A stretch of 64,000 bases of DNA from Shimia sagamensis (lineage in GTDB: Bacteria > Pseudomonadota > Alphaproteobacteria > Rhodobacterales > Rhodobacteraceae): the NCBI RefSeq assembly GCF_900182745.1, contig NZ_FXTY01000001.1, forward strand, positions 620,001 to 684,000, read 5' to 3'. Positions 10,282 through 31,075 of the stretch are shown piece by piece. Made by a program: the position numbers and the translations under genes. The notes beneath the pieces were generated by a model. It saw nothing but the letters and a program-made list of their open reading frames with translations, was not told where the DNA came from and made no database searches. Positions within the stretch are counted from its first letter, which is position 1. Each line of letters opens with the position of its first letter.

Positions 10282-13200
10282 TTAAGGGTGACGCGCGACA
10301 GTGTAGATGCGCCCGGCTTGAAACGGCCCCTTCAGGAAGCTGGTGCTGCCATCTGACCACGTTACCGACGCGCCTGTGGCTTCGGTCTGGTCACCTAATC
10401 CAAAGTGCGCGCGCGGCGCATCAAAGCTCATGAAACCGCCACCAAGTTGCAGCTCGCGCGTCTGCGTGCCGCCATCTGTCGTGGTGATAGAGACGCGAGC
10501 GCCGATGCCGTCGCGGTTACCGATGTGGTCTTCAAGCTGAAACACCACCGCAGCGCCTTGGATGTTGTTGCGGAAGGCCACCAGCGGGCCATTCACAGGA
10601 TGGGTGATCAAGTCCAGATCGCCATCGTTGTCAAAATCCATCTGCGTGGCGCTGGCGGTCATCAGGTAATCTTCGAGACCAAAGGGGCCCGATGCTTCAG
10701 CAAAGGTACCGTCGCCGCGGTTGTGGAAGAAGAGGTTAGAGGGCGAGACTTCGTTTGGCACCCATGTGCCGTTTACGATGTAGACGTCTTGCCAGCCGTC
10801 CAGGTCAAAGTCGGCAATCTTGGTGTCCCAGCTCCAGCCGCCGACGTCCAAGCCGCGGGCCTCGGCCTGATCTTCCCAACCTGCGCCAGCGCGAGCAAGC
10901 AGGACGTTGGAGCGCAAGATTTGCGGGTGCGTAAGCGCAATTTCCTCGGCCGTGGCGGTGCGCGTTGGCTGGAAATGCCAGTCACAATAGGCGCGGGGAA
11001 TAGGTTGGTCGGCACGGATCAGTTCACAGATAGATGGATCACGCTTTTGAATGGCCAGATCTTTGACCAGCATCGCCTTGCATTCCACTTGATCCCGCCC
11101 AGTCAGTTTTTGGCAGTTTTTGGCATAAGTAGGGTCGAAATTGTTGCCAGACTTGTACCAGGATTTGATGTCCATGTTCTTCTGGCAGCGGTCTTTTGCG
11201 TCCACATTCTGGATGCCATCACAGTATTGACCAAGCGGTTGCATTTTCAGAGTTTCTGACACCCCAGACGAACGTCCCGCAATCTGTGCGAAATATATGT
11301 CAGTGGAGCCGTCGTTGGCCAAATCAGCCGTCTTGATGGCCATCGTGGTGGTTGTGGTATGCGGGATCAGGCCCTGCGGTTGTGTAAGCATGGCAAATCC
11401 ACCAGAGCCATCTCCGCGGTAGAAGTAGTCTGGGATGTCGAAGTCATTGCCCACAATCAGATCTGTGGCACCGTCATCGTCAAAATCCGAGAACAGGATG
11501 GATAAGGTTTCGCCAGGGATGCCGGGCATATCCGCATAAGTTTCGCCGGTGAGGGCACCGTCGGTGTTGAGGATCAAGCGGTTGCGGCTCTCTTCACCCG
11601 GAATGCGGCGGTACCAGCCCGCCGCCCAATTGCCCAGCGCCACATCCAACGTTCCGTTGGCATCCACGTCGGCAAGCGCCACCGCAAGGGACAGAGGTGA
11701 TTGCGGGTTGTTTGGCACGGGTTTGGGCGGTTCAGAGCCGAAACTACCCTCCACATTACGCCACCAATAGTTGCCTTGCAGGTATGTGGTCATGAACAGA
11801 TCCGGCCAGCCGTCGTTGTCAATGTCTGCAAAAACGGCATTGAAGATAGGAGCGGTGGCAAGGTCGCCCAACGGTGCCGATGTCGTCACAAATTGCCCAG
11901 CGCCGTCATTAGAATAGAGATAAAGGCCGACTTCAGTGGACGCGATGGCCAGGTCAAGATCACCATCGCGGTCAAAATCCGCGCTGGACAGGCTGCGCCC
12001 TTCCCAGAAGGGTGGCCACATGTCTCGGAAGGAAAACTCAACCGGTTTGTCGATGCCAATGGTGCCTGCTTCTACACGCGTGAAGGGGCGTTCAGCGGCA
12101 GGTGAAGCGGGAGCCAAAGCTGAGCTGCTAACAGTGATCGAGGGGGCCTCTGAGGCAGCGACGGACCACATTGGGGGTGCTAGCTCCGGCGCGCGGCTCT
12201 CTAGCAGCATTTCAAGTGCCCGGCGGCTTTGCCAGTCGTGATACCCTTGCGCGCCCAAGCCTGCGACAACACCGAGCACAGCGATGGTGGCTGACAACAT
12301 CCAAGCGGCACGTGTGCCCACCGACTGCACAACAATCAGGCCGGAATAGACACTAAATATCCCCAAAGTGAAGAGAAGCCCCATGACATAGCCATGCGCC
12401 AGACCGGCAGAAAGAAGAGCGCCAGTAACGACCACATCAAACGCGATGGGGACTGGCAGAAACAGCCCTACGATGACAATTGCGATCAGCGCAACGATGC
12501 CAAAGGCCAGCCCTGTGATCAGGTCTTGCGGCAAGAGCACAGCAACAAGCGCTCCAAGAAATCCAGCCAGTAGCATCAGCGGCACGGTCATTTTCACAAT
12601 GTACCACAGGTTTTTGAGGAACCCCTGCCCCACAGCCAGGATGGCGGTGCTGAGGGGGTCGTGGGTGGCGTGTCCCTGAGAGAGTTCGTCGACACTCCAA
12701 GGCTTGGCCTCTTGCAAGGTGGGTTGGGCAATTTCCGTTTGAGGCAACAAACGACAGATTAGAGGCACCGCAATCAGGATCACCACCAGACTGAGCGCAA
12801 TCTTGGCCACAGCCATATAAAACGGCAGAAGGGAAAACAGCATGGTCAGGACAATGATGTTCAGCGTTGGCGAGGCAATCATGGCAGACAACGTGGTTTC
12901 GGCCCGCATGCCGGCGGAATACATGCCGCGCGCTATCGGGGCGGCGCAGTTCACACAGACGCCAAGCGGAGTGCCGATGGCGAGGCCCAACAGAGAATTG
13001 GCAAAGCCCCCGCGAAAGCTGCGCTGTTTGAGATAGCCGGCTGCTGTCAGGAAGGCTGCGGCAAACATAACGCCAAAAGTCATGCCCTTTTTATTGGTGT
13101 TGATCCAATTGATGGTGGTGAAGAAGATCCGCTCCAGCGTGCTCATGTCAGCTGTCAGGGGGAAGAGCGCCTCAAACCCTAACGGGTCTTCGAGCTGAAT

Positions 13201-13335
13201 GGCGCCGGACATCATTGCCTTCTCGTCCAACGCTGGGTACCGCGACCCGGTCCAGAACAGGTATGCCAACAGGGCCACGATAAGTGCTGCTAGGAAGAAG
13301 CGTTTTTGATAAGGATGCTGGACTATAGTTTTCAT
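10282..13335 (-). CDS. Permease fused to FG-GAP repeats and UnbV/ASPIC domain
   Basis: A 1017-residue three-part protein. Residues 1 to about 370 hold many membrane segments and resemble the ArsP/YraQ-type permease family, including GTPLGVCVNCAAPIARGMYS near residue 125. After a Pro/Ala/Ser-rich linker come at least seven FG-GAP-like calcium-binding blades (DRDGDLDLAIAS, DIDNDGWPDLFM, DFDDDGATDLIVG, DFDLDGWQDVYIV, DFDNDGDLDLIT). A cysteine-rich insert of about 90 residues (at least six Cys) splits the propeller region. The last 90 residues match the UnbV/ASPIC type (GIGARVSIT, ending IYTVARHP). The propeller is probably periplasmic. Substrate is unknown. Confidence 0.8.
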   Translation of the reverse strand: MKTIVQHPYQKRFFLAALIVALLAYLFWTGSRYPALDEKAMMSGAIQLEDPLGFEALFPLTADMSTLERIFFTTINWINTNKKGMTFGVMFAAAFLTAAGYLKQRSFRGGFANSLLGLAIGTPLGVCVNCAAPIARGMYSAGMRAETTLSAMIASPTLNIIVLTMLFSLLPFYMAVAKIALSLVVILIAVPLICRLLPQTEIAQPTLQEAKPWSVDELSQGHATHDPLSTAILAVGQGFLKNLWYIVKMTVPLMLLAGFLGALVAVLLPQDLITGLAFGIVALIAIVIVGLFLPVPIAFDVVVTGALLSAGLAHGYVMGLLFTLGIFSVYSGLIVVQSVGTRAAWMLSATIAVLGVVAGLGAQGYHDWQSRRALEMLLESRAPELAPPMWSVAASEAPSITVSSSALAPASPAAERPFTRVEAGTIGIDKPVEFSFRDMWPPFWEGRSLSSADFDRDGDLDLAIASTEVGLYLYSNDGAGQFVTTSAPLGDLATAPIFNAVFADIDNDGWPDLFMTTYLQGNYWWRNVEGSFGSEPPKPVPNNPQSPLSLAVALADVDANGTLDVALGNWAAGWYRRIPGEESRNRLILNTDGALTGETYADMPGIPGETLSILFSDFDDDGATDLIVGNDFDIPDYFYRGDGSGGFAMLTQPQGLIPHTTTTTMAIKTADLANDGSTDIYFAQIAGRSSGVSETLKMQPLGQYCDGIQNVDAKDRCQKNMDIKSWYKSGNNFDPTYAKNCQKLTGRDQVECKAMLVKDLAIQKRDPSICELIRADQPIPRAYCDWHFQPTRTATAEEIALTHPQILRSNVLLARAGAGWEDQAEARGLDVGGWSWDTKIADFDLDGWQDVYIVNGTWVPNEVSPSNLFFHNRGDGTFAEASGPFGLEDYLMTASATQMDFDNDGDLDLITHPVNGPLVAFRNNIQGAAVVFQLEDHIGNRDGIGARVSITTTDGGTQTRELQLGGGFMSFDAPRAHFGLGDQTEATGASVTWSDGSTSFLKGPFQAGRIYTVARHP

Positions 13336-13367: not shown

Positions 13368-14027
13368 TTATTCATCAATTTGCGCGGGCTTTTCCCAATC
13401 AATTCCCGATAGTTTTGTACTTTTGGCGAACCGTTTTTTGATAGTGGCTTTATGCCAGTTTTTGACCATATCTGGCCTGACCAAAGCTTTTCGGGAGTAG
13501 TCAGACTTGGCCTTCGCAGTCAACTGAAAGTCAGAAACACCCAAGTCATTCATCAGGTTTTGCAAGGCGCAGGGCAATTCATCGTAGCGCAATACTCGAT
13601 CGACAACTTTGATCCCGGCAATTGCGAATTTGCGGGTGTCAATCGGGAAACGACCCTCTCTTACAAACTCCGCCCAACTCAAATTGTAAGCCCCGTCGGC
13701 ATTATGATGCGGCGAATTTCGGAGCATGTGATATTGACTGATACACTTTGAAACCGGCTCGCGTTCAACGCAGAATTTGAACATCGAGTCGAAATGCTTG
13801 GGCCCCAGTGTCTTACGCATCACTGCCGCTGTCATATGATTGTAGTAGAGCTGCTCTCCATCAGGATCACTAAAATTGCGTGGTACATGACCGGGTTCCG
13901 AGGGAATGATCGGCGTCACTATAGCATCGTCGCCTGCAATTTTACTCAGATCTACTTCAATACTTGTACCGGCCGTCTTTGTGGTTTTTAGAAATATGAA
14001 ATTATGCTCAAAGCTTACAATTGCCAA
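13368..14027 (-). CDS. Sulfotransferase family protein
   Basis: A 219-residue protein with an N-terminal loop FIFLKTTKTAGTSIEVDL that fits the Sulfotransfer_2 (HNK-1/carbohydrate type) PAPS site, where KTAGTS replaces RSGTT. A CVEREPVSKCISQY block near residue 90 fits the second PAPS motif. It starts with TTG behind AGGGA. It follows the next sulfotransferase-like gene by only 10 bases, so the pair is co-transcribed. The acceptor is unknown, presumably a surface glycan. Confidence 0.72.
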   Translation of the reverse strand: MAIVSFEHNFIFLKTTKTAGTSIEVDLSKIAGDDAIVTPIIPSEPGHVPRNFSDPDGEQLYYNHMTAAVMRKTLGPKHFDSMFKFCVEREPVSKCISQYHMLRNSPHHNADGAYNLSWAEFVREGRFPIDTRKFAIAGIKVVDRVLRYDELPCALQNLMNDLGVSDFQLTAKAKSDYSRKALVRPDMVKNWHKATIKKRFAKSTKLSGIDWEKPAQIDE

Positions 14028-14037
14028 TTTTTCGTCC

Positions 14038-14688
14038 CTAAACAGCGAAGATATCGTATCCGAAGTAAGACATATCGTCCTTAAAGACCATCTCTGTGGC
14101 GTCTCTTAAGCTTTGACTAGCAAGAAGGCGACTTAGTGTTTCGCTGCTTGCTGCTGAGCGGTTCACTATTGGCAAACATGCGACTTGCGATGGCAGTTGA
14201 AGTTGAATGCACAAATTTCGGTAGTCGCTTCTCAACCTTTCATGTCTCAGAACTATGGCTGGTGCGTATGGCACGCCGTCCAGTTTTAGAAAGTCGACAA
14301 TAGGTCTAAGTTTTTGCCCATCCGTTATGAGCGATAAGAAACTCTCCTCACTCCACACTGGTGTTTGCGATTCCCAGCTTCCCAGAGATGTTTTTTTGAG
14401 CCAACGGCCCGGTGAAAAATACATCGACAATGCTCTCGGAAAGGGATGTCTTACGGAAACCACCACGCTGTAGTTTTCCAACGGCTCTCCAAGACTGTGC
14501 TTGTAGTCCGACAATCCTGCATGTTTTCGACGCGTTCGCGGACCGGTAACCCCGAACCGATTATGCCCATCTTGGTGACCTGTAACCGACTGCGCGTCTT
14601 CGCTGATTGGCAAAAGAGCGGTTTGAATTGAGTTGCCACCCGTTTTAGGCACGTGCAGATAGATGAAACGATGGCTCGTTGAGATCAC
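14038..14688 (-). CDS. Sulfotransferase family protein
   Basis: Sulfotransfer_2-type protein of about 216 residues with the PAPS loop FIYLHVPKTGGNSIQTALL close to the N-terminus and a VSVRHPFPRALSMYF block for the second PAPS site. The longest frame starts at 14736, but that ATG lies inside a strong terminator hairpin (14721-14747) of the upstream gene. GTG 14688, preceded by GAGGATCAGG, puts the PAPS loop near the start as in the neighbouring homologue, so I prefer it. It forms a pair with the gene at 13368. Confidence 0.7.
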   Translation of the reverse strand: MISTSHRFIYLHVPKTGGNSIQTALLPISEDAQSVTGHQDGHNRFGVTGPRTRRKHAGLSDYKHSLGEPLENYSVVVSVRHPFPRALSMYFSPGRWLKKTSLGSWESQTPVWSEESFLSLITDGQKLRPIVDFLKLDGVPYAPAIVLRHERLRSDYRNLCIQLQLPSQVACLPIVNRSAASSETLSRLLASQSLRDATEMVFKDDMSYFGYDIFAV

Positions 14689-14720
14689 AAGGCCTGATCC
14701 TCTATGCCCAATATTTAGTG

Positions 14721-14747
14721 AAAAGAAGCGGGCCATTGGCCCGCTTC
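14721..14747 (-). terminator. Rho-independent terminator
   Basis: On the - strand a perfect 10-base-pair stem (GAAGCGGGCC / GGCCCGCTTC) with a 3-base loop is followed by TTTT. It lies 35 bases after the stop of the fibre-like gene at 14782 and separates it from the sulfotransferase pair. Confidence 0.85.
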
Positions 14748-14781: not shown

Positions 14782-15960
14782 TTACCCTTCCAGGTCATTT
14801 AGGCGCTCACTCAGGTCACGAATAATCTGATCCTGCTCCAATGTGTACAAGGTCAGCTCTTCGACTTTTTCCAGAAGGTTCAGCTGCATTTCAGTCATGT
14901 TCAGACCAGTGGCGTTGATCTCTCCCGCGGATGGAACATTGGGAAGGTGACCGTTTTCATCGATAAATGCACGGACTTCGCTGAGCGGCATGAGATCATA
15001 TTCATCTTCAAACACGTAGTCTGGCACATTGAGTTGGGTGCCGCTGGACGCAAAGAAGTTTCCAGAAATCGTCAGGTTGCCATCCTGATCAAGCGTCAGT
15101 TCAGTCTCGCCAGGGCCGCCAGGGAAGGTGGTCATCAGGAATTTACCCGAGGTGTTTTTCATTTTCCACGTGCGACCAGAGTTGCTGGCATCAGCCACGC
15201 TTGTATCAGTCAACTCGAAGTTGGCGCTACCGTTGTTGCTGAGAGTCATAAGAGTACGCGCCGCGGCGGTGGCGCTAGCCTCCTCTACAAACAGAGATGC
15301 TGTGCCGTCCGTTTTCCGCACGTGCAAAGCCTTGCTTGGATTGTCTGTAGACACACCCACGCGACCGCTGCGGATCACCAAGCCATCATCATTTTCACTG
15401 CCCGGGAAAATGCGGAAGGACAGGGCGCTGCCATTGGTCACGTCACGTACAAAGAAGTTGGTCTCGTTGCCGGCCATATCCCACGTTTGGGGGGTGAAGC
15501 CAGACGAGCCGTTTTGCTCTAAGCGCAGCGTTGGCGAGTCACCGTCAACGATGTGCGCCTCCACAACCGGATTGTTGGTGCCAACACCAACGTCACCATC
15601 GGCTTCGACATAAAGTGCGTTGGTTGGTGCGCCAGCTTCTACGGTGAAAGGGGTACGGCCCCCATCGATATCATCGATAGAGAATTTGTTAGCGCCTCCG
15701 TTGGTGCTGTCATTGGCGGTCAATTGCCAATCGTTGCCAGGAAAACTGGCAGTGGCCGACGTATCCTGAAACTTAATCCGGAGATTATTCTCTTTTAGCC
15801 GAAGGGTGTCGAATCCAAAGGATTCGCCGTTAACACAATCCATACCGATGCAGGCGCTGCCGTCCACGATCAGATCGTCGAGAATAACTTGGTCAGCGTA
15901 GGCGGTACTTGCCAAACCCAGCGCTGCCACACTTACGAGTAATTTTGATGATTGTTTCAT
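14782..15960 (-). CDS. Secreted fibre-like protein with terminal coiled coil
   Basis: A protein of about 392 residues with a Sec signal peptide (MKQSSKLLVSVAALGLASTAYA). The body has repeated fibre-type blocks, GDVGVGTNNP and GRVGVSTDNPSKALHV, like those of tail fibres and endosialidase-chaperone proteins. The C-terminus holds YDLMPLSEVRAFIDENGHLP and NVPSAGEINATGLNMTEMQL, then a heptad-like helix (LLEKVEELTLYTLEQDQIIR). That last block resembles the ends of many Bacteroidetes fibre proteins rather than typical alphaproteobacterial ones. ATG 15960 with AGGA upstream is chosen over 15987. Probably a trimeric surface fibre. A terminator follows. Confidence 0.65.
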   Translation of the reverse strand: MKQSSKLLVSVAALGLASTAYADQVILDDLIVDGSACIGMDCVNGESFGFDTLRLKENNLRIKFQDTSATASFPGNDWQLTANDSTNGGANKFSIDDIDGGRTPFTVEAGAPTNALYVEADGDVGVGTNNPVVEAHIVDGDSPTLRLEQNGSSGFTPQTWDMAGNETNFFVRDVTNGSALSFRIFPGSENDDGLVIRSGRVGVSTDNPSKALHVRKTDGTASLFVEEASATAAARTLMTLSNNGSANFELTDTSVADASNSGRTWKMKNTSGKFLMTTFPGGPGETELTLDQDGNLTISGNFFASSGTQLNVPDYVFEDEYDLMPLSEVRAFIDENGHLPNVPSAGEINATGLNMTEMQLNLLEKVEELTLYTLEQDQIIRDLSERLNDLEG

Positions 15961-16006
15961 AACTAGATTCCTATTCGCTAGGACCAACCGGCTTGATAAC
16001 CGTTGG

Positions 16007-16417
16007 TCACTCCTCCTTGATGTCTTCCGGGATCACGATGACCCCGCGCTCCACCAGAAAATTGCCGGTGGAGTAATAGGGCACAGCAGCAGTGTCTCGC
16101 TGTGCATCGCCACGACCCTGGTTCGTGGCGTTGACAATTTTCTTCTGTTCCTCAGTCGCAGCACGTAACTCGTACCGGTAATAGCCATCTTGAATGTCGC
16201 GGCCAGACAATTGGAACACAGGTGTTCCCGAGGCCGCAAACACCTCGATTGTTTCTCCGTTAGGCGCTGTTACAGACAGCGTTGCGTTGCTCAACCCAAT
16301 CCAGTTTTCAAACCATACTGCGTTCGAGTTGTGCAGCTGAACCGGTTCGGGGGTTGCCGCAACGGCAACTTGAAAGGAAAAACATAGTATTGCTGCGCCA
16401 GCAAAGAATCGTCGCAT
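16007..16417 (-). CDS. Small secreted protein of unknown function
   Basis: About 136 residues beginning MRRFFAGAAILCFSFQVAVAA, a clear signal peptide, followed by a beta-rich domain (WFENWIGLSNATLSVTAPNG, then GYYRYELRAATEEQ). I do not recognise the family. It lies 46 bases upstream of the secreted fibre-like gene on the same strand and probably shares its transcript, so it may help assemble or anchor that fibre. ATG 16417 is chosen because the signal peptide starts there; the longer frame to 16453 adds a polar leader. Confidence 0.6.
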   Translation of the reverse strand: MRRFFAGAAILCFSFQVAVAATPEPVQLHNSNAVWFENWIGLSNATLSVTAPNGETIEVFAASGTPVFQLSGRDIQDGYYRYELRAATEEQKKIVNATNQGRGDAQRDTAAVPYYSTGNFLVERGVIVIPEDIKEE

Positions 16418-16607
16418 TAAAACACCAAGACTTTGGTCATGAGGAATAGGCAAAGTCTCCCAACCCTGCCATCCAATTACGTTAATACAAATTCACAAAA
16501 GATGGAACGATTTTATGGTTTTCCCGACCTTTATCAGGCCTCTGAGCGGGAAGTGCGGCCAAAAAACCAACATTTTGACAGCGTGCGTTAACATTTTCAG
16601 TCAGGCG

Positions 16608-17807
16608 TCATTTGAACTGCAGAGCGCGTTCTTGAGCTTCGGTGACTTGCTCAACCGTCATTTGGGAGGCAAGAAATCGCGCTAGGTCGGGGTCACCGGG
16701 GTGGCCAAACCGAGCGCCCCTGATCAGCCACATATGCGCAAGCACGTAGTCCTGAGGCACGCCTTCTCCGCGCGCAAACAGGCCTGCCAAGTTGATCATT
16801 GCAGGCGCCATGCCAGCCTCAGCGGCGGCCTCCATAAGAGTGGCTGCTTGTATCTGATGGTTTGGCGACCTTTCGGATTGCGACAAAATCAACCACCCAA
16901 GCTGAAACTGGGCAATTGGATCACCAAGGTTGGCGTGATCCCGGAGCAATTTTAGTCCAGCTTCGCTTGTATCAGGTTGGCTCAAGCGCGGATCGTAGAC
17001 AGGGCCTGGAGGTACACCAGAGGCGGCGGGAGTAGCTTGGCCAGCCCCTTCGCGGTAAAGCTCTGCCGCTCTGGCCTCATCAAGAGGCACACCAAAGCCG
17101 TTTTCATACATGACACCCAAATTCGCCTTGGCCACATCCAGCCCTTGCTCACTTGCTGCGGCAAAAAGTTCGGCGGCTCGCGCATAGTCCTGCGACACAC
17201 CTTCGCCACGCACAAAAAGCAATCCAAGATTGTTTTGTGCGCGCGGATGGTTTTCGGAAACGGCAAGTTCATAAAGCTGCTTTGCCCGCGCTACATCTTT
17301 TGGCACGCCGGTGCCGTTCTGAAACAAGACGCCAAGGCTCACCATGGCCTCCAAATGCCCCTGCTCAGCGGCCCGGGCGTATATTTGCGCCGCCAAACCA
17401 ATATCCGCCAGAATATCCGGCGCGCTTTCCAAGGCGCTTGCATAGTCAAACATGTGATCAGGGTCGCCAGACTTGGCCGCGGTTTCCAGCCAGAGCAGGC
17501 CTGCCTCCGGATCGGCCTTGCCGCCGTATCCCGTGAAGAGATATTGGCCCAATTGGTTTTGAGCCGCCACATGACCTTGTTGTGCAGCGCGTTCAAACCA
17601 CGCTGCTGCGGTTGCAAAGTTTTGGAGCACGCCTTCACCGGCATGAAATCTCATGCCAAGGTCATATTGCTCTTCCGGAGTATACTCCTGACCAGCGTTA
17701 GAGGTTTCCGTGAGGGTCGTCTCACCCGACTGCGAGACAGCCGGTGTTCCCATAACCGCAACGGCGGACACTATACTGAGACAGAAAAGAAAACTGCACC
17801 GCCTCAT
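16608..17807 (-). CDS. Sel1-repeat secreted protein
   Basis: A 399-residue protein with a signal peptide (MRRCSFLFCLSIVSAVAVMG) and a solenoid of about nine Sel1-like repeats, recognisable by AAxWFERAAQQGHVAAQNQLG-type units and GxGVPKDxxRA turns. Such proteins act as periplasmic or secreted scaffolds for protein-protein contacts. Its start overlaps the stop of the longer Sel1 gene upstream by 4 bases, so the two are translated together. Partner unknown. Confidence 0.85.
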   Translation of the reverse strand: MRRCSFLFCLSIVSAVAVMGTPAVSQSGETTLTETSNAGQEYTPEEQYDLGMRFHAGEGVLQNFATAAAWFERAAQQGHVAAQNQLGQYLFTGYGGKADPEAGLLWLETAAKSGDPDHMFDYASALESAPDILADIGLAAQIYARAAEQGHLEAMVSLGVLFQNGTGVPKDVARAKQLYELAVSENHPRAQNNLGLLFVRGEGVSQDYARAAELFAAASEQGLDVAKANLGVMYENGFGVPLDEARAAELYREGAGQATPAASGVPPGPVYDPRLSQPDTSEAGLKLLRDHANLGDPIAQFQLGWLILSQSERSPNHQIQAATLMEAAAEAGMAPAMINLAGLFARGEGVPQDYVLAHMWLIRGARFGHPGDPDLARFLASQMTVEQVTEAQERALQFK

Positions 17808-19405
17808 TGAGACGCACCGATTGGCAATTGATTGGCCGCATCCTCAAAGAATTGGCGGGCCATGGTCTGCGCTTCAGCAATTTGTTCTGCGGTCATCAAG
17901 TCTGTGACTGTGCCACGCAGTTCAGCTGCCTTTGAGTGACCTCCCGTGGCCGCAATGTTGAGCCAAGCGTGAGCCAGCACGTAGTCCTGGATGCCACCTT
18001 CGCCACGCGTCAGCATTTGGCCCAGCCGAAATTGTGCCTCAACATCCCCAGCTTGCGCGGCCTGTTCAAAAAAGGGAACCGCGTCTTGAGGCACGTTGTC
18101 TTGCTCCGTCAGCCAAATTGCCCATGCCGTTTGCGCAGGGCGAATGCCATTTTCCGCCTGTTTTTTCAACCAATCCCGCGCCGCATTGTCTCCCTCAGCA
18201 GAGGCGGCAACCGCCCAGGGCACAACGGTGTGAGGGGCCACCAAACCATCAAGTTTGCCACTGCCTGCCATCTGTCCCAACGCAACTTGAGCGGGGGTGT
18301 ACCCCTGATCGAGCGCAGTCCGATATGTTTTCAAAGCAGCTTCCAGGTCAACTGGCCGACCGTCCCCGAGCACAAGCATCCCGGCAATCTCAGCTGTGGC
18401 ACGACCATACTCACTGTTAGAAGCTTGGTTGTACCATGCCCATGCGTTTTCGGGATCTTTGGCAATGCCGTAGCCGCCGCCAAAAGCGTCTCCGAGAAGG
18501 GTCATGGCCACCGCATCGCCACGCTTGGCTGCGGTTGAAAGCCACGTCATGGCTTCAGTTGGGTTCGCCGCAACCTCATCACCGGTCAGATAACGTCGCC
18601 CAAGTGCGCGTTGCGACAGAACGTGTCCAGCTTCCGCAGCGTGTTTCAACCACACCAAAGACTGGTCACGGTCCAAAGGCACACCACGCCCTTCGTCATA
18701 GGCCCGCGCGAGATTGAACTGTGCGGAGGTGTGACCATTCTCTGCGGCGAGCGTCAGCCAGTGCACAGCCGCGTCTGTGTCTTTTGCAACGCCTTGGCCA
18801 CGTGAGTATGCGCGGCTGATCGCAAATTGCGCTTCTTGATGATCCTGCTCTGCGGCGGCCAAAAGCCAATTGAACGCAGTTTCATAGTTGGTTTCAACGG
18901 CAATGCCGTCCCGGTGGATAAGCCCCATGTAATATTGGGACTCCGAAACACCACGCGCCGCCGCACTGGCAAATAGCTTAATCGCGCGTTCAGGCTGATA
19001 AAGATCACCATCTTGTGGCGCCGAAAGATACAGACGTGCCAATAGGTTTTCCGCAGCAACAAATCTCTGTGCCGCTGCCTTTTCCAGCCAAAATACGGCG
19101 CCCTCCAGGTCTCGCGGCCCGCCCAACGCTTCCAAGAGAACGCGACCATAGCGGAATTGGACCAAAGGTTGGTCTGTTTCTTCCACATGCCTGCGCAAGC
19201 CGTCACGCACAAAGGCATAGTTTTTATCCGCCCATGCCGCCTCGATTTCCGCCATTGAGGGGCGTGGCGCAGCTTGCTCGCCCGCTGACACCTCCGCATC
19301 GTTGGCAACGGGCTTGAAGGTAGGCGCCTGCTGAGACATTGCTGCAGGTGTCATCATTGCAAAACTAAGCAGCAAAGGGGGGAAAACGCGGAGCGGGAAA
19401 TGCAT
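17804..19405 (-). CDS. Sel1-repeat secreted protein, longer paralogue
   Basis: A 533-residue protein with an N-terminal signal peptide (LLLSFAMMTPAAMSQQ) and Sel1 repeats through most of its length, for example AVHWLTLAAENGHTSAQFNL and AYDEGRGVPLDRDQS. Its C-terminal block (GEGGIQDYVLAHAWLNIAA) closely matches that of its neighbour (GEGVPQDYVLAHMWLIRGA), showing a tandem duplication. It lies beside the prepilin peptidase and type II secretion genes; a link to that system is possible but unproven. Confidence 0.85.
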   Translation of the reverse strand: MHFPLRVFPPLLLSFAMMTPAAMSQQAPTFKPVANDAEVSAGEQAAPRPSMAEIEAAWADKNYAFVRDGLRRHVEETDQPLVQFRYGRVLLEALGGPRDLEGAVFWLEKAAAQRFVAAENLLARLYLSAPQDGDLYQPERAIKLFASAAARGVSESQYYMGLIHRDGIAVETNYETAFNWLLAAAEQDHQEAQFAISRAYSRGQGVAKDTDAAVHWLTLAAENGHTSAQFNLARAYDEGRGVPLDRDQSLVWLKHAAEAGHVLSQRALGRRYLTGDEVAANPTEAMTWLSTAAKRGDAVAMTLLGDAFGGGYGIAKDPENAWAWYNQASNSEYGRATAEIAGMLVLGDGRPVDLEAALKTYRTALDQGYTPAQVALGQMAGSGKLDGLVAPHTVVPWAVAASAEGDNAARDWLKKQAENGIRPAQTAWAIWLTEQDNVPQDAVPFFEQAAQAGDVEAQFRLGQMLTRGEGGIQDYVLAHAWLNIAATGGHSKAAELRGTVTDLMTAEQIAEAQTMARQFFEDAANQLPIGASQ

Positions 19406-19484: not shown

Positions 19485-20354
19485 CTAGTTCAGCAATCCC
19501 GTTACACGGCCCAACCACAGAAGCACGGCAGCAAGACAAAGGGCCGTACCAAAAGGAATGGACTGTTGGCCGAGGTTGTCACCGCGCCGGTGCCGGATCG
19601 CCCCCCACAAGATGCCCAAAAGGGCCCCGCCGAAAACCAGAAGGGGTAGATCAAATGGCCCCGCAAAAGCCCCGAGTCCCGCCATCAATTTGACGTCGCC
19701 CAACCCCAAGCCCTCCCCCCCCCGCAGAGCGTGGTAGATGATGCGCAGCACCAAGAAGCTGCCGGCACCCAACGCCGCACCCAGCAAGGCCATCTCCACC
19801 CCTGATCCGCCCGGACCCATTGACGCAATCAACCCAAAAACAAACAGAAGCACGGTTAGGAGATCTGGCAGACGCATCCAGAGTAGGTCCGATACCGCCA
19901 AACCCAAAAGGAGCCAGAGAAAAACCGCCGTGAGCAGCATGGTGGCCTCGGTGTCGCTGGCAATAACGGCGAACCCAGCCACTGCAATCGCTGAGATTTC
20001 CAAGTAGAGTACCCAGGGGGGAATGCTGCTGTCACAATGGCGACACCGCCCTTTTGACCAAACAAAGCTCAAAACGGGCACGAGGTCGCCGATGTTCAGT
20101 TGTTCCCCACAGGAGCGGCAGAAGGATCGGCGGGACACCACATTTTCGCCGCGCGGGAGTCGATCCACCAAAACGCCAAGAAATGAGCCAATGGCCGGGC
20201 TGACAAGCAAAAGAAACAAAGAGGTTGGATCGGTCACAGGCAAGCTCAGACAGTTTGGACAACTCAGTTTTGCGCGCTTCAGGTTGTATTGTCCATTGCT
20301 TGCCTGTGACAGGCTCGCGTATGGGGAGAATGGACAAACCGTCCCGGCTGCCAT
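19485..20354 (-). CDS. gspO: Prepilin peptidase (A24 family)
   Basis: Inner-membrane aspartic peptidase that cleaves and methylates the type II pseudopilins. It has the cytoplasmic zinc cysteines (RRSFCRSCGEQL and GRCRHCDSS), the first catalytic Asp in AVSDLLWMRLPDLLTV, and the second in GLGLGDVKLMAGLG, with several membrane helices. ATG 20354 has GGAGG 8 bases upstream; this leaves an N-terminal stretch with an extra CPNC before the usual family start. A nine-G tract lies just before the GxGD codons. It diverges from gspG with 32 bases between starts. Confidence 0.92.
   Translation of the reverse strand: MAAGTVCPFSPYASLSQASNGQYNLKRAKLSCPNCLSLPVTDPTSLFLLLVSPAIGSFLGVLVDRLPRGENVVSRRSFCRSCGEQLNIGDLVPVLSFVWSKGRCRHCDSSIPPWVLYLEISAIAVAGFAVIASDTEATMLLTAVFLWLLLGLAVSDLLWMRLPDLLTVLLFVFGLIASMGPGGSGVEMALLGAALGAGSFLVLRIIYHALRGGEGLGLGDVKLMAGLGAFAGPFDLPLLVFGGALLGILWGAIRHRRGDNLGQQSIPFGTALCLAAVLLWLGRVTGLLN
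19715..19723 (-). repeat. Nine-G homopolymer tract inside gspO
   Basis: Nine consecutive G on the coding (-) strand spell Arg-Gly-Gly-Glu just before the second catalytic motif GLGLGDVK. Gain or loss of one base would frameshift the peptidase before its active site. Confidence 0.9.
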
Positions 20355-20386
20355 TACCATGGCCTCCGAACAGAGCGAGCCAGTTA

Positions 20387-20845
20387 ATGTCACCCACTTC
20401 TTCCGCAAATACCGAACAATCCAAGAACGACGCCGGGTTTTCCCTGCTGGAATTGATGGTTGTAGTTGTGATCCTTTCGGTTTTGGCACTGGTGATTGTA
20501 CCGCGCGTGATTGACCGCCCGGACCAAGCCCGGGCCGCACGCGCCCAGACTGACATCGCTGCGGTTGTCAGCGCCGTGAATTTGTACCGGCTCGACAATT
20601 TCCGCTACCCAACAACGGAACAGGGGCTCAACGCATTGGTCACACGGCCAACCAGTGATCCCATCCCAACAAATTGGGCCACCAACGGGTATATGGACCG
20701 TCTGCCGATCGATCCATGGGGGCAACCATACCAATATTTGTCACCCGGTGTGCACGGTGATTTTGATGTGTTCAGCTATGGCGCAAACGCTGTCTCCGGT
20801 GGCACAGGGGCGGACGCGGATATCGGGTCATGGGCCGCGCAATAA
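20387..20845 (+). CDS. gspG: Type II secretion major pseudopilin
   Basis: A 152-residue pseudopilin with the prepilin cleavage site AG/FSLLELMVVVVILSVLAL and the GspG C-terminal pattern YPTTEQGLNALV, PIDPWGQPYQYLSPG and DVFSYGAD-like DVFSYGAN. The Asn replaces the usual calcium-site Asp. It forms the shaft of the periplasmic pseudopilus. ATG 20387 is used; the frame runs further upstream but would overlap the divergent gspO. First gene of gspG-H-I-J-K-L-M. Confidence 0.93.
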   Translation: MSPTSSANTEQSKNDAGFSLLELMVVVVILSVLALVIVPRVIDRPDQARAARAQTDIAAVVSAVNLYRLDNFRYPTTEQGLNALVTRPTSDPIPTNWATNGYMDRLPIDPWGQPYQYLSPGVHGDFDVFSYGANAVSGGTGADADIGSWAAQ

Positions 20846-21279
20846 CCTCAGACAATTCTGCCGGTTTCTCATTGATCGAGCTTCTGATTGCCGTGGCGAT
20901 CATGGCTGTTTTGGCCGTGGGCGCAAGCTTATCCATTGGTCGAATGCAATCTGGCACACCTCAAGATCAGGCTCTGTTTCAGCGTAACTTTGACAGTTTG
21001 AAAGAGCTGGCCATCACCAGCGGACAAAGCCGAGGCTTGCAGATAACAACCAAGGGCCTGCAAGTGGCCATGCAAACCCCGCAAGGCTGGCGGATTTCAG
21101 AACAGGTTTTGGCGTGGCGCGGCAAGGTGACAGCCACAGTGCCTCCAACGGCTTCCAATGCACCCGATGTGGAGTTTTTGGCCAGTGGAGAGACCACCCC
21201 ATTCTCCATTGTATTCAGCAGAAAAGGCGACATGAGCCGATGCCAATCAGACGGCTTTCTGGGGCTGACATGCAAGTGA
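20830..21279 (+). CDS. gspH: Type II secretion minor pseudopilin
   Basis: 149 residues with the type III signal AGFSLIELLIAVAIMAVLAVGA and a soluble beta domain as in GspH (FSIVFSRKGDMSRCQ near the C-terminus). It overlaps gspG by 16 bases, a coupled arrangement. GspH is a minor pseudopilin joining the G shaft to the I-J-K tip. Confidence 0.85.
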   Translation: MGRAITSDNSAGFSLIELLIAVAIMAVLAVGASLSIGRMQSGTPQDQALFQRNFDSLKELAITSGQSRGLQITTKGLQVAMQTPQGWRISEQVLAWRGKVTATVPPTASNAPDVEFLASGETTPFSIVFSRKGDMSRCQSDGFLGLTCK

Positions 21280-21641
21280 TCAGACATCAAAGATCGCCAG
21301 AAGATTCGGGTCTGACGCTGATTGAGCTGGCCATCGCGATTTTTGTGCTCGCGATAGGCACCATTGCCGCCACCCGTACGGCAGATCAATCGCGCGTGGC
21401 CATTGGGGGAGAGACGCCCCGATTACTGGCACGTATTGTGGCGCACAATCGGATAGAAGAGCGCAAGTTATATGGGACTTCGGTGCCCTTGCCTGCCACG
21501 GTTTTGATGGGTGCACAGGATTTTGCGATTGAAGAAGATGTTGCTGTTACCGAAGCGGGGTTGGTCCGCGTCCAAGTGACAGCAAGAGGTCAATCCGGTG
21601 AGGGAGCGCAATTGAACGCTTACCTGAAAGGCGGGTTGTGA
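21270..21641 (+). CDS. gspI: Type II secretion minor pseudopilin
   Basis: About 123 residues from ATG 21270, overlapping the gspH stop by 10 bases. The prepilin site is SGLTLIELAIAIFVLAIGTIAA: Gly, then Leu instead of the usual Phe/Met at +1, and Glu at +5. The downstream HNRIEERKLYG region fits GspI. It belongs to the tip complex with GspJ and GspK. Confidence 0.85.
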   Translation: MQVIRHQRSPEDSGLTLIELAIAIFVLAIGTIAATRTADQSRVAIGGETPRLLARIVAHNRIEERKLYGTSVPLPATVLMGAQDFAIEEDVAVTEAGLVRVQVTARGQSGEGAQLNAYLKGGL

Positions 21642-22327
21642 TGCGCCATTTACCGACTCCGACCAACTCCGCGCATAGGGATCGCGGGCTTAGCTTGATC
21701 GAGCTTGTGGTGGCCATGGCGCTGTTTGCTTTGGTGGCGATCATGGGGGCGCAAGGCCTGTCTGGCATGTTGCGGTTGCGCGATAACTTGCACGCCCGTA
21801 GTGAGGCGTCCGCTGATCTGGCACAAGCGATCAGTCTTTTGCGACGAGATATGTCTTCGGCGGTTCCAATGCCGTTCTTTTCGCCCGACAACGGGCCGAT
21901 ACTGTCCGCTCTCATCGAAGACACCCAAGGGTTTTCCGTATCGGTTGGTGGACAGCCAACGTTGCAAACATCTGGGCGGCTACAGCCAGTTTTCCATCGG
22001 GTATCTTGGCGAATTCAGCCACGTTCGGGTCTGTTCTCTCGGCAAAGATGGTCGACACTCACTCCACTCAACAGCACGGCGCTTGGCCCGGAAGTCCCCG
22101 TGTTGAACGGCGTAATAAGCATAAGAATGCGTAGTTATTGGGGGGAACTTGGCTGGGTCAACGGTCTGCGTCCGCCGTTGCAAGCAGTGCAAAGCGCGCC
22201 CAACCAAGACGAAGACAGCGGCTCAAATGCCACGGTTGCCTATTCCAGCGGCCTGCCAGACGGGGTGGAGATCACGCTGGTCACAGAGAAACACGGTGAA
22301 TTGGTGCTGTTGGAGTCGCTGAAATGA
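21641..22327 (+). CDS. gspJ: Type II secretion minor pseudopilin
   Basis: About 228 residues with the type III signal DRGLSLIELVVAMALFALVAIM and the GspJ pattern of a long N-terminal helix followed by QAISLLRRDMSSAVP. ATG 21641 overlaps the gspI stop by one base; GTG 21638 is an alternative. Part of the pseudopilus tip. Confidence 0.87.
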   Translation: MRHLPTPTNSAHRDRGLSLIELVVAMALFALVAIMGAQGLSGMLRLRDNLHARSEASADLAQAISLLRRDMSSAVPMPFFSPDNGPILSALIEDTQGFSVSVGGQPTLQTSGRLQPVFHRVSWRIQPRSGLFSRQRWSTLTPLNSTALGPEVPVLNGVISIRMRSYWGELGWVNGLRPPLQAVQSAPNQDEDSGSNATVAYSSGLPDGVEITLVTEKHGELVLLESLK

Positions 22328-23259
22328 GCGGGCATCAGAGCACTGAAAGCGGCTATGTGCTGGTAAATGCTCTGGTGCTGGTGGCGGCATTGTCCGCGGT
22401 GGCGGTTTTTCTTTTGGCGCGGGCAGATGCGGGCCGCATCCGACTGGACGCAGGCCTGACGGCAGCACAGGTGTCTTTGAATCTGGATGCGTATGAAGCG
22501 CTTGCCAAAACTCTATTGGAACGGGACACAGGCGCGGTTGATCACAACGGTGAAAGCTGGGCCAATCCGGTAATCGACATGCCTTTGGGACGAGGCCGTG
22601 TGACCGGGCGTACAGTGGATCAACAGGGACTGTTTAACCTGAACTGGCTGTCCAATCCGGACTATGAGACAGCCCATCAAGCGTTTGAGCGCCTGTTAAC
22701 ACAACAAGGCGTACCGCAGCGGACCGCTCAGCAGATACAAGTACTTCTGAGCGTGGATGGTCCCACTGACCCAGCCACCTGGCATAGAAAAACCCCCGCT
22801 GAGGCGCCTGTTTCTGGACCAATGCTGATGGCGGATCAGTTGGCCCATGTACCCGGGATTTCAGAGCAACACTTGGCGCGGTTGCTGCCTTTTGTGGCAG
22901 CGCTTCCCGGGGACAGCACCTTGAACGTCAACACGGTGTCAGAGGAAGTGTTGCGCGCGTTTTTGCCAAACCTGTCTGCCGCCGCCTACAACCAAGTTTT
23001 TCGTGACCGCACAGCTCAACCGTTTTCATCTGTAGATGCTTTTTTGGCTGCGGTTGGTGTTTCGATCGCGGATGCAGATAATCCAGACGGGCCGCCGCCC
23101 CTATTGTTGCCAGAGCATTTATCAGTCGGGTCGCAATGGTTTCGGGCAGAGATATCAGCTTCTATTGACGGCCACTTCGCCCAGCGCAGCGTTGTGTTTC
23201 AGAGACAAAGCTTTCCAGTTGGTGTAACGACCCACTGGCGGATCACGACAAGGCCATGA
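22324..23259 (+). CDS. gspK: Type II secretion minor pseudopilin, tip
   Basis: 311 residues with an N-terminal membrane segment (SGYVLVNALVLVAALSAVAV) lacking the classic FTLIE; cleavage after Gly would leave Tyr at +1 and no Glu at +5, consistent with the GspK exception. The large domain has FNLNWLSN, HVPGISEQHLARLLPFV and LNVNTVSEEVLRAFLP, the helix-hairpin-helix-like GspK part. It overlaps gspJ by 4 bases. Confidence 0.88.
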   Translation: MSGHQSTESGYVLVNALVLVAALSAVAVFLLARADAGRIRLDAGLTAAQVSLNLDAYEALAKTLLERDTGAVDHNGESWANPVIDMPLGRGRVTGRTVDQQGLFNLNWLSNPDYETAHQAFERLLTQQGVPQRTAQQIQVLLSVDGPTDPATWHRKTPAEAPVSGPMLMADQLAHVPGISEQHLARLLPFVAALPGDSTLNVNTVSEEVLRAFLPNLSAAAYNQVFRDRTAQPFSSVDAFLAAVGVSIADADNPDGPPPLLLPEHLSVGSQWFRAEISASIDGHFAQRSVVFQRQSFPVGVTTHWRITTRP

Positions 23260-23330
23260 AACAAAAGCAGGATTGCACTCTGTGCCAGAGGTCTGCATTT
23301 TGCTGATATGTGAATTTGACAGGAGCGCCG

Positions 23331-24524
23331 GTGCTACAAGTCGCAAAAACTGCCAACCCTGCGAAGACCGGAGAGTCCTCCGCAGTTTTTGCGCGGGCGG
23401 GTGACGGAACGCAGACTGCCCGACATATTGTATTGGCGCCTGGTCATGCTGTGCCACTGATCCAGCTGGACCTCCCCAAGTCGTTGCGTGGACAAGCAAG
23501 AGAACAGGTCGCACAACGGCAGTTGACTGACCGAATGGGTCTGAATGACACGGTGCAGATGCGGCCCTGTGTCCTTGGCACCAAGGGAGAAGATTGGTCC
23601 CGTGTGTTTGTTGCAGATCACGCCCAAATGGCTGAGTGGCGGGGCTATGACTGCCGCGCGGTGCTTCCGGACTACCTGTCCTTGCCAACATCAGAAGGTC
23701 TTTGGACGTTTTCACAAGTCAAGGTGGGCGAGACTACCATTGTCATGATGCGGTTTGGTCCAAGCGATGGGGCCAGCACATCTATCGAAATGGCTGAGGC
23801 CGTGGTGTCACAGGCGTTAAACAACGGCTCCAAACCCAAGGCGGTGCTTTGGCAAGGCGAAAGCCTCACGAACATTGACGCCTTGATGAGCGCGCGGGAT
23901 GTGCCAGTTGTCACCGATCCAGATTTGCTAAAAGAGTTGGACGTAGACCATCCTTCGGTTTTGACACACGGCGAGTTGGCTTGTGATCTGCGCACGGACC
24001 CAATGGCGGCACGGACACGATTGGCACAACAGGTTTTGCCTTGGAGATGGACAGTTTTAGCCGCTGCGTTGGGTGTCACTTTGTGGATCGTCAGTCAACT
24101 TGTTGCCATTGGGCGCATTGAAGACCAGACCGCCAAAATCAGCGTCCAGACCCAAGAGATTGTCAAAGAGCACTTTGTACCGACCGGGCCCATTTTGGAT
24201 GTGCGATCCCAAGTCAGCCGCGTGCTGTTAGATTTGCGGCAATCCCATGCTGGCGGAGGCGCAACGCTGGACGTTTTGGACCTAACCGCAGAGGTTGGTG
24301 CTGTGCTGGACGCCGCAGATTCCGTGCCAGAGATGGTCAGCTACACAAGGGACAACGGGCTTCTAATTGTTGTGCGGATGCCGGATTTTGGCAGTGCCGA
24401 ACGGCTGACGGCGGCGCTACAAACCGACCACATGAGTGCCGAATTGGAAGAAAGCCGGGTCAGCGATGGACAGGTTGGTGTCCGCACTGAAATTCGGATT
24501 TCGCCCAAGGAGCCAAACCAATGA
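23331..24524 (+). CDS. gspL: Type II secretion inner-membrane protein
   Basis: About 397 residues. The cytoplasmic actin-like domain is N-terminal, a single membrane helix lies near residue 240 (WTVLAAALGVTLWIVSQL), and a periplasmic ferredoxin-like domain follows. It links the ATPase GspE to GspM. GTG 23331 has AGGAG 5 bases upstream; GTG 23310 is an alternative. A gap of about 70 bases separates it from gspK, the only break in the G-to-M series. Confidence 0.85.
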   Translation: MLQVAKTANPAKTGESSAVFARAGDGTQTARHIVLAPGHAVPLIQLDLPKSLRGQAREQVAQRQLTDRMGLNDTVQMRPCVLGTKGEDWSRVFVADHAQMAEWRGYDCRAVLPDYLSLPTSEGLWTFSQVKVGETTIVMMRFGPSDGASTSIEMAEAVVSQALNNGSKPKAVLWQGESLTNIDALMSARDVPVVTDPDLLKELDVDHPSVLTHGELACDLRTDPMAARTRLAQQVLPWRWTVLAAALGVTLWIVSQLVAIGRIEDQTAKISVQTQEIVKEHFVPTGPILDVRSQVSRVLLDLRQSHAGGGATLDVLDLTAEVGAVLDAADSVPEMVSYTRDNGLLIVVRMPDFGSAERLTAALQTDHMSAELEESRVSDGQVGVRTEIRISPKEPNQ

Positions 24525-25018
24525 GGGGCCGGTTCTTGGATTTTCTACTGCAGCTGACCCGCCGGGAGCGGATGTTGTTGGCCAGTATGGGTGTCATTGT
24601 GGTGCCTTTGGCCGTGATTTTTGGACTGATCCTTCCGCTTCAGGATCAAAGAAACGCTGCTGAACTGGCGCAAAAGGAAGCTGTGGCACTGCAGCGCTGG
24701 GTGTCCAGCCAAGCCAGAGAACAGACGGTTTTGTCCCAAACCGCACCTCAAACTGAGATTGGAAACCCCATTGGATCCGGCGGGATCGAACAGGGATTGA
24801 TAAAGGCGCAACTGCGCCAGTCCGTCACTGTGTTGGACGCGGATGGCGAAGATGGAATCGAACTTCAGTTTGAGCGCGTGGATTTTCTCAAACTGGCATC
24901 TTGGCTCAGATCGACACATCCTGAATGGGGTTACGACATCGTCGCGTTCCGGCTTGAAGCAACGAATGAGCCAGGCGTGGTGTCCACCTGGCTCGATCTT
25001 CGACCACCTAAGAAATAG
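24521..25018 (+). CDS. gspM: Type II secretion inner-membrane protein
   Basis: 165 residues with one membrane helix (LLASMGVIVVPLAVIFGLIL, about residues 20-39) and a small periplasmic domain, as in GspM. Overlaps gspL by 4 bases. Converges on the TPR lipoprotein gene 15 bases downstream. Confidence 0.85.
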   Translation: MRGRFLDFLLQLTRRERMLLASMGVIVVPLAVIFGLILPLQDQRNAAELAQKEAVALQRWVSSQAREQTVLSQTAPQTEIGNPIGSGGIEQGLIKAQLRQSVTVLDADGEDGIELQFERVDFLKLASWLRSTHPEWGYDIVAFRLEATNEPGVVSTWLDLRPPKK

Positions 25019-28816: not shown

Positions 28817-28863
28817 AATAGTCTTGCTCCGACCCCACCATCACACGCATGCACACGCCTAGG

Positions 28864-30840: not shown

Positions 30841-31075
30841 GACCTGCTCTCTTGTCACGGGCTGTCGCCTGATCCGTTGATCGAACCTAAGCCGCCTTGC
30901 CTCTTTGGGGCTTTATAGCGGATGTGCCGACAGATTGCACTCTTTTCCACACAGTTTTCCACAGGCAGTACGCCGTGTGGCACCTAAGTGTGACAACATC
31001 GCTACGCGCGATTACAGAGCGCCCAATGGGGCTCAGGCGCAAGCGGGGAGCAATTCACGCCAAAACAGTCTCTAA

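Follow-up and report, generated by a model that had tools for sequence, protein, structure and literature searches.

What does a polytopic permease do when it shares one polypeptide with an FG-GAP propeller and a UnbV/ASPIC domain? The question is raised by a gene in a 64,000-nucleotide stretch of the Shimia sagamensis genome (contig NZ_FXTY01000001.1, positions 620,001 to 684,000; hereafter the window), whose product we call the permease-propeller-UnbV protein (PPU). An original prediction, made from the letters alone, had seen in it a possible transporter with its own periplasmic module, for example for a metal or a sulfur compound. We found that PPU is a genuine single chain and that its membrane domain can be lost or exchanged, while the constant association is that of the propeller with a fibre-like protein and a type II secretion system (T2SS). 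Hence, we read PPU as a dedicated periplasmic factor, anchored in the inner membrane, that would serve assembly or reception in a surface-fibre cassette linked to the T2SS, in which the propeller would bind the fibre or a partner and the permease would move a ligand; we favour this reading tentatively, without calling it probable. The T2SS and fibre context, absent from the original prediction, is in our view the strongest clue to PPU function.

PPU is a single conserved chain

The PPU gene lies on the minus strand of the window, which had been left unstated, and its open reading frame (ORF) runs uninterrupted from an ATG start for 1017 aa, as had been predicted. The proposed domain content was confirmed, with the Pfam families for the ArsP-type permease, FG-GAP and UnbV/ASPIC all above their cut-offs, and the order from the N- to the C-terminus is ArsP_1, an FG-GAP propeller holding a six-Cys helical insert, and UnbV/ASPIC. 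An AlphaFold model (67 input sequences, mean pLDDT 85.3, pTM 0.68) has helices up to residue 375, then beta blades, the helical insert and a C-terminal beta domain, with low-confidence stretches at residues 40-45, 201-222 and 377-397; at a pTM of 0.68, the mutual placing of permease and propeller in the model is unreliable. The S. sagamensis genome holds one PPU, plus one further ArsP_1 protein and one further UnbV protein.

We then examined the relatives of PPU. A scan of 84,980 species genomes gave 110 relatives, the best 80 of which were analysed; by their record titles, they come mostly from Rhodobacterales, but also from Maricaulis, Marinicauda, Robiginitomaculum, Hellea, Breoghania and a few metagenome-assembled genomes labelled otherwise. 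The architecture thus recurs in Rhodobacterales, Maricaulales and others, and the nearest full-length relatives, from Shimia, are 89-90% identical. Among 98 loci with a PPU match (some rows being one genome reached via two collections), 92 have it in one open frame of at least 900 aa, while three match the UnbV end alone, one is cut by a contig end and two have the propeller without the permease. Eight Roseobacter-group plasmid records carry PPU at 97-100% coverage, and seven of them hold it unbroken; the eighth copy, H8 (Parasedimentitalea marina), is a composite of three segments spanning three annotated features, and so may be broken. The broken plasmid copy and the occurrence of the propeller alone in two species might speak for PPU being a frameshift, an assembly join or a chance fusion of two genes. 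However, the lone-propeller forms nest within the fused family and so represent losses, and since 92/98 loci keep the single frame the fusion is no artefact. Homologues that are always split, which the original prediction had named together with a frameshift or a join as its undoing, are not what this sample contains, and we give an artefactual origin, refuted by the homologues, virtually no credence.

Conservation was read from three sets: alignment A1 (77 rows); alignment A2 (67 rows: the window protein and 66 of the 80 fetched loci, leaving outside the partial or propeller-only L083, L091, L099 and L100 plus ten near-copies of A1 or A2 rows); and a wider set of 92 of the 98 match ORFs, from which the six shorter than 900 aa were excluded and in which the ten near-copies and L091 do stand. 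In all 67 rows of A2, the permease residues C127, N129, C130, P294, P296 and D300 and the six insert cysteines are invariant, and these eight cysteines (two permease, six insert) are kept in 92/92 rows of the wider set.

A propeller with a six-cysteine helical insert

In PPU, FG-GAP_3 matches six stretches (118.7 bits), with FG-GAP also above its cut-off, and these repeats are followed by a C-terminal UnbV_ASPIC match (PF07593, residues 943-1003, 59.5 bits against a cut-off of 23.4). Calcium-loop motifs of the D-x-D-x-D-G type lie at residues 453, 504, 556, 617, 842 and 900, and a degenerate seventh (DLANDG, about residue 671) was recognised by eye, so that the propeller is read as seven-bladed, in agreement with the at least seven blades originally proposed; on these motifs, it is predicted to be of the calcium-binding type. 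A Foldseek search with the PPU model gave mouse CRTAC1 as the best match (9etn, E 2.0e-19), followed by integrin headpieces, and in a sequence search of the PDB CRTAC1 was the sole match better than E 0.05 (4.1e-13).

The insert lies between blades five and six, with cysteines at 705, 717, 741, 752, 770 and 784 and model helices at 711-726, 736-743, 746-764, 767-772 and 778-787. The spacing of these cysteines is indeed conserved: the gaps are exactly 11-23-10-17-13 residues in 75/77 rows of A1, the two exceptions being the divergent L103 and L094, the latter having a longer second gap between paired cysteines. The insert can be read as three Cx10-13C helical hairpins, and the spacing within a helical stretch suggests the disulfide pairs 705-717, 741-752 and 770-784.

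PPU is linked to a fibre-like protein and to T2SS genes

To describe the surroundings of PPU, relatives of the neighbouring window genes (Table 1) were counted at the 80 fetched loci in flanks of up to 8 kb, some of which were ended by the contig. The most frequent partners were small148 (68 loci), the fibre-like protein (65), the Sel1-repeat proteins Sel1a and Sel1b (64 each) and the A24 prepilin peptidase (43). At least two of the first four were present in 72/80 loci, all four in 51/80 and none in five, and at least one T2SS or A24 gene was found in 50/80. As Sel1 repeats are promiscuous, the Sel1a and Sel1b counts are the softest. Seven loci, mostly from Maricaulis, have another order (GspF, GspD, PPU, Sel1b, Sel1a, fibre, with small148 in 6/7), and since these are rearranged yet linked, the linkage is not mere inherited gene order.

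The co-occurrence of PPU, fibre and GspM was then counted in 248 genomes of the same family, taken as one set. Full-length PPU was present in 14 (four more match in the UnbV end alone), and the fibre protein in 13, all of them within the 14 PPU genomes (Fisher p 9e-21 on the assumption that species are independent). GspM scored above its cut-off in 23 genomes, comprising 14/14 with PPU and 9/234 without, and thus the T2SS is both linked to PPU and co-occurs with it. On the same contig, the fibre gene lies at most 15 kb from PPU in 9/13 fibre genomes, and GspM is at most 25 kb from PPU in 9/14. Two or three fibre matches were seen in 5/13 fibre genomes (G133:C172, G064:C104, G126:C45, G099:C13 and G098), and the reading frame of one match in G200 contains an internal TAA. 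The search for the fibre outside the family also returned a partial N-terminal match in G520 and a weak match in G242. On a Tropicibacter plasmid (L150), PPU adjoins a 2828-aa immunoglobulin-like protein (L150:23269-31755) and T2SS genes including GspG. A protein cluster whose median-length member has 2543 aa lies downstream in 8 loci.

Table 1. Coordinates of PPU, its parts and the neighbouring genes in the window.
Feature	Position	Strand	Basis
Permease-propeller-UnbV protein (PPU), 1017 aa	10282..13335	minus	One ORF, Pfam domains, AlphaFold model
ArsP_1-type permease domain, residues 1-375	12211..13335	minus	PF03773 and model helices to 375
C127-V-N-C130 motif at helix break	12946..12957	minus	Alignments and model
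FG-GAP propeller, about residues 415-925, insert inside	10561..12093	minus	PF13517/PF01839; Foldseek CRTAC1 9etn
Six-Cys helical insert, Cys 705-784	10984..11223	minus	Invariant Cys, model helices, spacing
UnbV/ASPIC C-terminal beta domain	10291..10554	minus	PF07593 at 943-1003
Sulfotransferase-like gene (variable slot)	13368..14027	minus	PF03567 13.3 bits, under cut-off 22
Sulfotransfer_2 gene (variable slot)	14038..14736	minus	PF03567 38.4 bits
Fibre-like protein, putatively secreted	14782..15987	minus	By eye; relative in 65/80 loci
small148, signal-peptide-like start, predicted beta sandwich	16007..16453	minus	Relative in 68/80 loci; model pLDDT 82.6
Sel1-repeat protein a (Sel1a)	16608..17807	minus	PF08238; 64/80 loci
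Sel1-repeat protein b (Sel1b)	17804..19405	minus	PF08238; 64/80 loci
A24 prepilin peptidase	19485..20540	minus	PF01478/PF06750; 43/80 loci
T2SS pseudopilin (N_methyl), GspJ, K, L, M	21114..25018	plus	Pfam; T2SSJ just below cut-off, 27.4 vs 28
T2SS GspF, GspE, secretin GspD	26139..30858	minus	Pfam

In the window, the A24 peptidase, Sel1b, Sel1a, small148, fibre and two sulfotransferase-like genes form a co-directional run that ends with PPU, with gaps of at most 155 bp when counted from the first possible starts, and GspJ-M, F, E and D all end within 11 kb of the peptidase. Scans for promoters and terminators were no richer than shuffles (6 vs a mean of 6.4, and 16 vs a mean of 14.5). The fibre protein had no Pfam match over the cut-off and no NCBIfam or PHROGs family; its N-terminal C46/C51 (CxGxDC) are invariant, and its designation as a putatively secreted fibre is a reading by eye, as is that of its N-terminus as signal-peptide-like. 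For small148, which likewise had no NCBIfam or PHROGs family, a Foldseek search with its model gave weak matches, many of them fibronectin type III (FnIII) folds and none at E 0.001. Immediately downstream of PPU lies a DUF2793/Phage_tail_C_2 protein (window positions 8715-10100, minus strand) that matches tail-fibre PHROGs and has a relative in 7/80 loci.

The transferase slot is variable

The two sulfotransferase-like genes noted in the original prediction do adjoin PPU. However, the stretch between the fibre gene and PPU varies from locus to locus, and in 10 of the 50 loci with the fibre gene upstream it holds no ORF. Among 84 slot ORFs, four clusters, with eleven, six, six and five members, were sulfotransferase-like, the first two being called by likeness to the window pair and the other two by the Pfam match of one member, and another five ORFs were further fibre-like proteins. 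Since some of the 84 are likely spurious, ten that looked like real genes were picked, eight of which had a Pfam match (Glycos_transf_2, Sulfotransfer_3, Glyco_transf_25, TylF, RMNT_CmcI, GSCFA, Methyltransf and Sulfotransfer_1) and two of which had none. As the slot content changes between loci, with glycosyl- or methyltransferases in some, the sulfotransferases of the window are one of the forms that this tailoring slot takes, and we have dropped the transport of a sulfur compound that had been read from them. Such variation next to a fibre gene hints at a surface that changes, with possible consequences for attachment or for contact with phages.

The propeller remains where the permease is lost or exchanged

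In Thalassovita gelatinovora (L099) and T. aquimarina (L100), the protein consists of propeller, insert and UnbV domain behind an N-terminus that is signal-peptide-like by eye, and both genes adjoin relatives of the fibre, small148, Sel1 and A24 genes. The L100 N-terminus resembles that of PPU by eye (MKNIVQSRSEKR vs MKTIVQHPYQKR), while T. autumnalis (L047) has the fused form. A search of the two genomes, whose completeness is not stated, found no close permease (none in G633 and a weak match at E 3.1e-6 in G634), and we have therefore rejected split genes with a permease elsewhere. In a propeller tree that also included 16 of the other UnbV proteins and one peroxidase fusion, L099 and L100 fall inside PPU (support of 100/98 for their clade with the window protein and L021), which makes loss of the permease the most likely explanation. 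Hence, the view of a transporter core with the propeller as its sensor does not fit these two genomes, which keep the propeller in the same type of locus without the permease, and this points to the propeller as the constant part rather than the transporter.

A second class of relatives has an exchanged membrane domain. In two other genomes of the phylum, NQR2_RnfD stands in place of ArsP_1 at the N-terminus (L102:337-3213, 43.0 bits against a cut-off of 27.7; L142:6098-8980, by sequence similarity), followed by a propeller whose insert is of the PPU kind but has four cysteines. Because this sister class also carries a membrane domain on such a propeller, the view that UnbV proteins stand apart from transporters is not supported as worded. 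With no close ArsP_1 in the L099 and L100 genomes and NQR2_RnfD in L102, the membrane domain appears exchangeable. The tree joins the RnfD class to PPU weakly (88/65), with several long-branched rows including L103, so that one propeller module shared on two membrane domains is not proven. We take the L102 and L142 fusions to be UnbU-UnbV-like; PPU, whose membrane domain is ArsP_1, does not have the NQR2_RnfD partner of such a pair. Directly upstream of the L142 gene is a gene that looks RND-like (resistance-nodulation-division) by eye. In L140:6038-9304, a UnbV propeller also follows an N-terminal part that by eye looks like a di-haem cytochrome c peroxidase, and the UnbV proteins in L141 and L149 have nearby proteins that look multihaem by eye.

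The NQR2_RnfD partner and the peroxidase-like fusion, together with the permease CxxC and the six insert cysteines, could point to a redox or thiol relay, in which the membrane domain would hand reducing equivalents to periplasmic cysteine hairpins. However, six cysteines at fixed spacings in a helical stretch look structural, the ArsP fold is not known to us to carry electrons, and a flavin mononucleotide attachment motif (SGAT) is not visible by eye in L102. We consider such a relay improbable.

The most divergent permease-fused relative (L103/L104, 33% identity) lies in L104:2368-13213 between genes with Asn_synthase, PEPCK/ABC-like and Sulfotransfer_1 matches on one side and an ABC transporter, Transglut_core3 and NTP_transf_5 on the other; two collar-type proteins, one of them scored, are also near it. 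The neighbours in L105 include Sulfotransfer_1, Asn_synthase and ATPgrasp_ST, and such surroundings resemble lasso-peptide clusters. These two loci, together with the sulfo-, glyco- and methyltransferases of the main-family slot, would suit a UnbV protein that makes or exports a small modified product with its membrane partner, the fibre system then being a secondary recruitment. UnbU and UnbV of enediyne clusters are a precedent, and our literature search returned no paper joining UnbV with UnbU or with enediyne. Such surroundings were seen in two distant loci alone, the flanks of the 80 main-family loci having been compared with the window genes and with one another but not searched for such genes, and we regard this explanation as rather unlikely.

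The permease domain and its possible cargo

The ArsP_1 profile (PF03773) matches PPU at residues 113-360 with 66.2 bits (cut-off 32.3), and the divergent L103 with 37.8 bits. The best NCBIfam matches are the SO_0444 Cu/Zn efflux family (NF033936, 37.9 bits, cut-off 300) and SaoE (NF040736, 33 bits, cut-off 325); because these scores are far under their cut-offs, PPU belongs to the superfamily but outside both equivalogs, and we have rejected it as a member of either. Compared with nine ArsP_1 proteins from the relatives, C127 aligns with the first Cys of a CxC motif and C130 lies one place past the second; CxC is present in 8/9 of these proteins and is replaced in PPU by CxxC (CVNC). As L176 also lacks CxC, this motif may not define the ArsP_1 family. 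Both permease motifs, the Cys motif and the second-half motif, fall at helix breaks in the model, where they would resemble the substrate site of a repeat-built transporter.

Since the domain is under strong constraint where it is present, it probably moves something. SO_0444 itself is reported to be required when Zn or Cu causes stress (PMC3219624) and to occur also as a selenoprotein with UxC (PMC13188914), and in Nitratiruptor a gene of the SO_0444 family is induced by Cd and Cu (PMC10092412). Because these distant kin respond to metals, a soft metal or a thiol-reactive ligand would be the most likely cargo.

The same evidence bears on whether PPU is an ArsP/SO_0444-type efflux transporter for a metal or metalloid, with the calcium propeller as its own periplasmic sensor or acceptor and a neighbourhood that is incidental or stress-linked. 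Besides the family match, the CVNC at the CxC place and the metal-responsive kin, this would agree with the annotation of RND efflux genes some 17 kb away from PPU in L150 and with the RND-like gene beside the L142 fusion. However, the NCBIfam cut-offs are missed widely, two species keep the propeller without the permease, and the linkage found to recur involves fibre, Sel1 and T2SS genes, the flanks not having been searched systematically for metal-resistance genes. We consider such an efflux role unlikely, though not negligibly so.

A proposed role in a fibre cassette

We return to PPU as a membrane-anchored periplasmic factor for a fibre, a reading that starts from the constant association of the propeller, the fibre-like protein and the T2SS. 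PPU would sit in the inner membrane, tethered by the permease domain, with the calcium-loop propeller, the Cys-hairpin insert and the UnbV domain on the periplasmic side. A periplasmic propeller is supported by the signal-peptide-like starts of two relatives, by the invariant cysteines and by the charge pattern, the N-terminus and the loop 99-109 being positive and the loop 31-66 acidic. The cassette would comprise the fibre-like protein, the FnIII-like small148, the two Sel1 proteins, the T2SS and variable sulfo-, glyco- or methyltransferase genes. Most likely, the propeller/UnbV face would bind the fibre or small148 ahead of export by the T2SS, and the permease, where present, may move a small ligand (a soft metal or thiol-reactive) via the CxxC/Asp site, coupling the periplasmic step to that ligand.

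Several observations weigh against this role. The acidic loop 196-227 has no assigned membrane side, and both the propeller-fibre contact and the fibre as T2SS substrate are steps that we infer. No fibre was found at 15/80 loci, with other partners present at ten of them (L029, L039, L044, L045, L048, L052, L058, L065, L073 and L082) and none of the four in the flank of the remaining five (L031, L033, L047, L083 and L084), and none of the window's partners was found around the L104 gene. In the family set, the species behind the Fisher p of 9e-21 are not independent, the T2SS (GspM) occurs without PPU in 9/234 genomes, fibre and PPU are on different contigs in 4/13 fibre genomes (G064, G099, G126 and G133), and G152 has PPU but no fibre, Sel1 and tetratricopeptide relatives being present at its PPU locus. 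Outside the family, G397 has a fibre with neither PPU nor another partner in its 20 kb surroundings.

A bolder version, which we find possible but doubtful, is an undescribed fibre system of marine Alphaproteobacteria, in which the T2SS would export a transferase-tailored fibre and a disulfide-stapled calcium propeller, fused to a transporter, would load, fold or license that fibre, the propeller being a general module set on different membrane domains. Other membrane-fused proteins annotated as 'FG-GAP repeat protein' may likewise share a role in handling secreted proteins. Among the papers listed by our literature search, we saw no function described for FG-GAP/UnbV proteins in bacteria, and the search gave no paper joining permease, FG-GAP and ArsP, or T2SS, Sel1, tail fiber and Rhodobacterales, or three of FG-GAP, T2SS, Sel1 and Roseobacter; PMC10090131 was found to name the T2SS once in its text and once in a reference. 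The PPU family ties an FG-GAP/UnbV protein to defined partners (fibre, FnIII-like protein, Sel1 pair and T2SS), the co-occurrence being nearly perfect among the family members sampled. A vague domain thereby becomes a genetic system that can be tested in culturable roseobacters, among which Tateyamaria omphalii (L028) and Pelagimonas phthalicica (L030) have the cassette.

Comparison with known systems

PPU shares with ArsP_1 permeases the family profile over residues 113-360 and the position of a Cys motif, which in most rows precedes a conserved ASP motif. It differs from them in having CVNC for CxC and PVPIAFD for their second-half motif, in its large C-terminal domain, which is periplasmic in the proposed topology, and in scores far below those of the equivalogs. 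Compared with type II secretion systems, the window cassette adjoins a prepilin peptidase, pseudopilins and GspJ-M, F, E and D, whereas PPU, the fibre, small148 and the Sel1 pair are outside the T2SS core components.

The NQR2_RnfD-FG-GAP-UnbV fusions resemble PPU in that a polytopic membrane domain precedes the propeller and UnbV, with a Cys-hairpin insert, but their membrane domain is unrelated and the insert has four cysteines instead of six; no window-type partner was found in L105, and the flanks of L142 were not searched for them. The Cys-hairpin pattern occurs in 0/17 of the other UnbV rows. Finally, CRTAC1 (551 residues in 9etn), although without a permease, is like other FG-GAP-UnbV (ASPIC) proteins in sharing with PPU a propeller followed by a C-terminal ASPIC domain.

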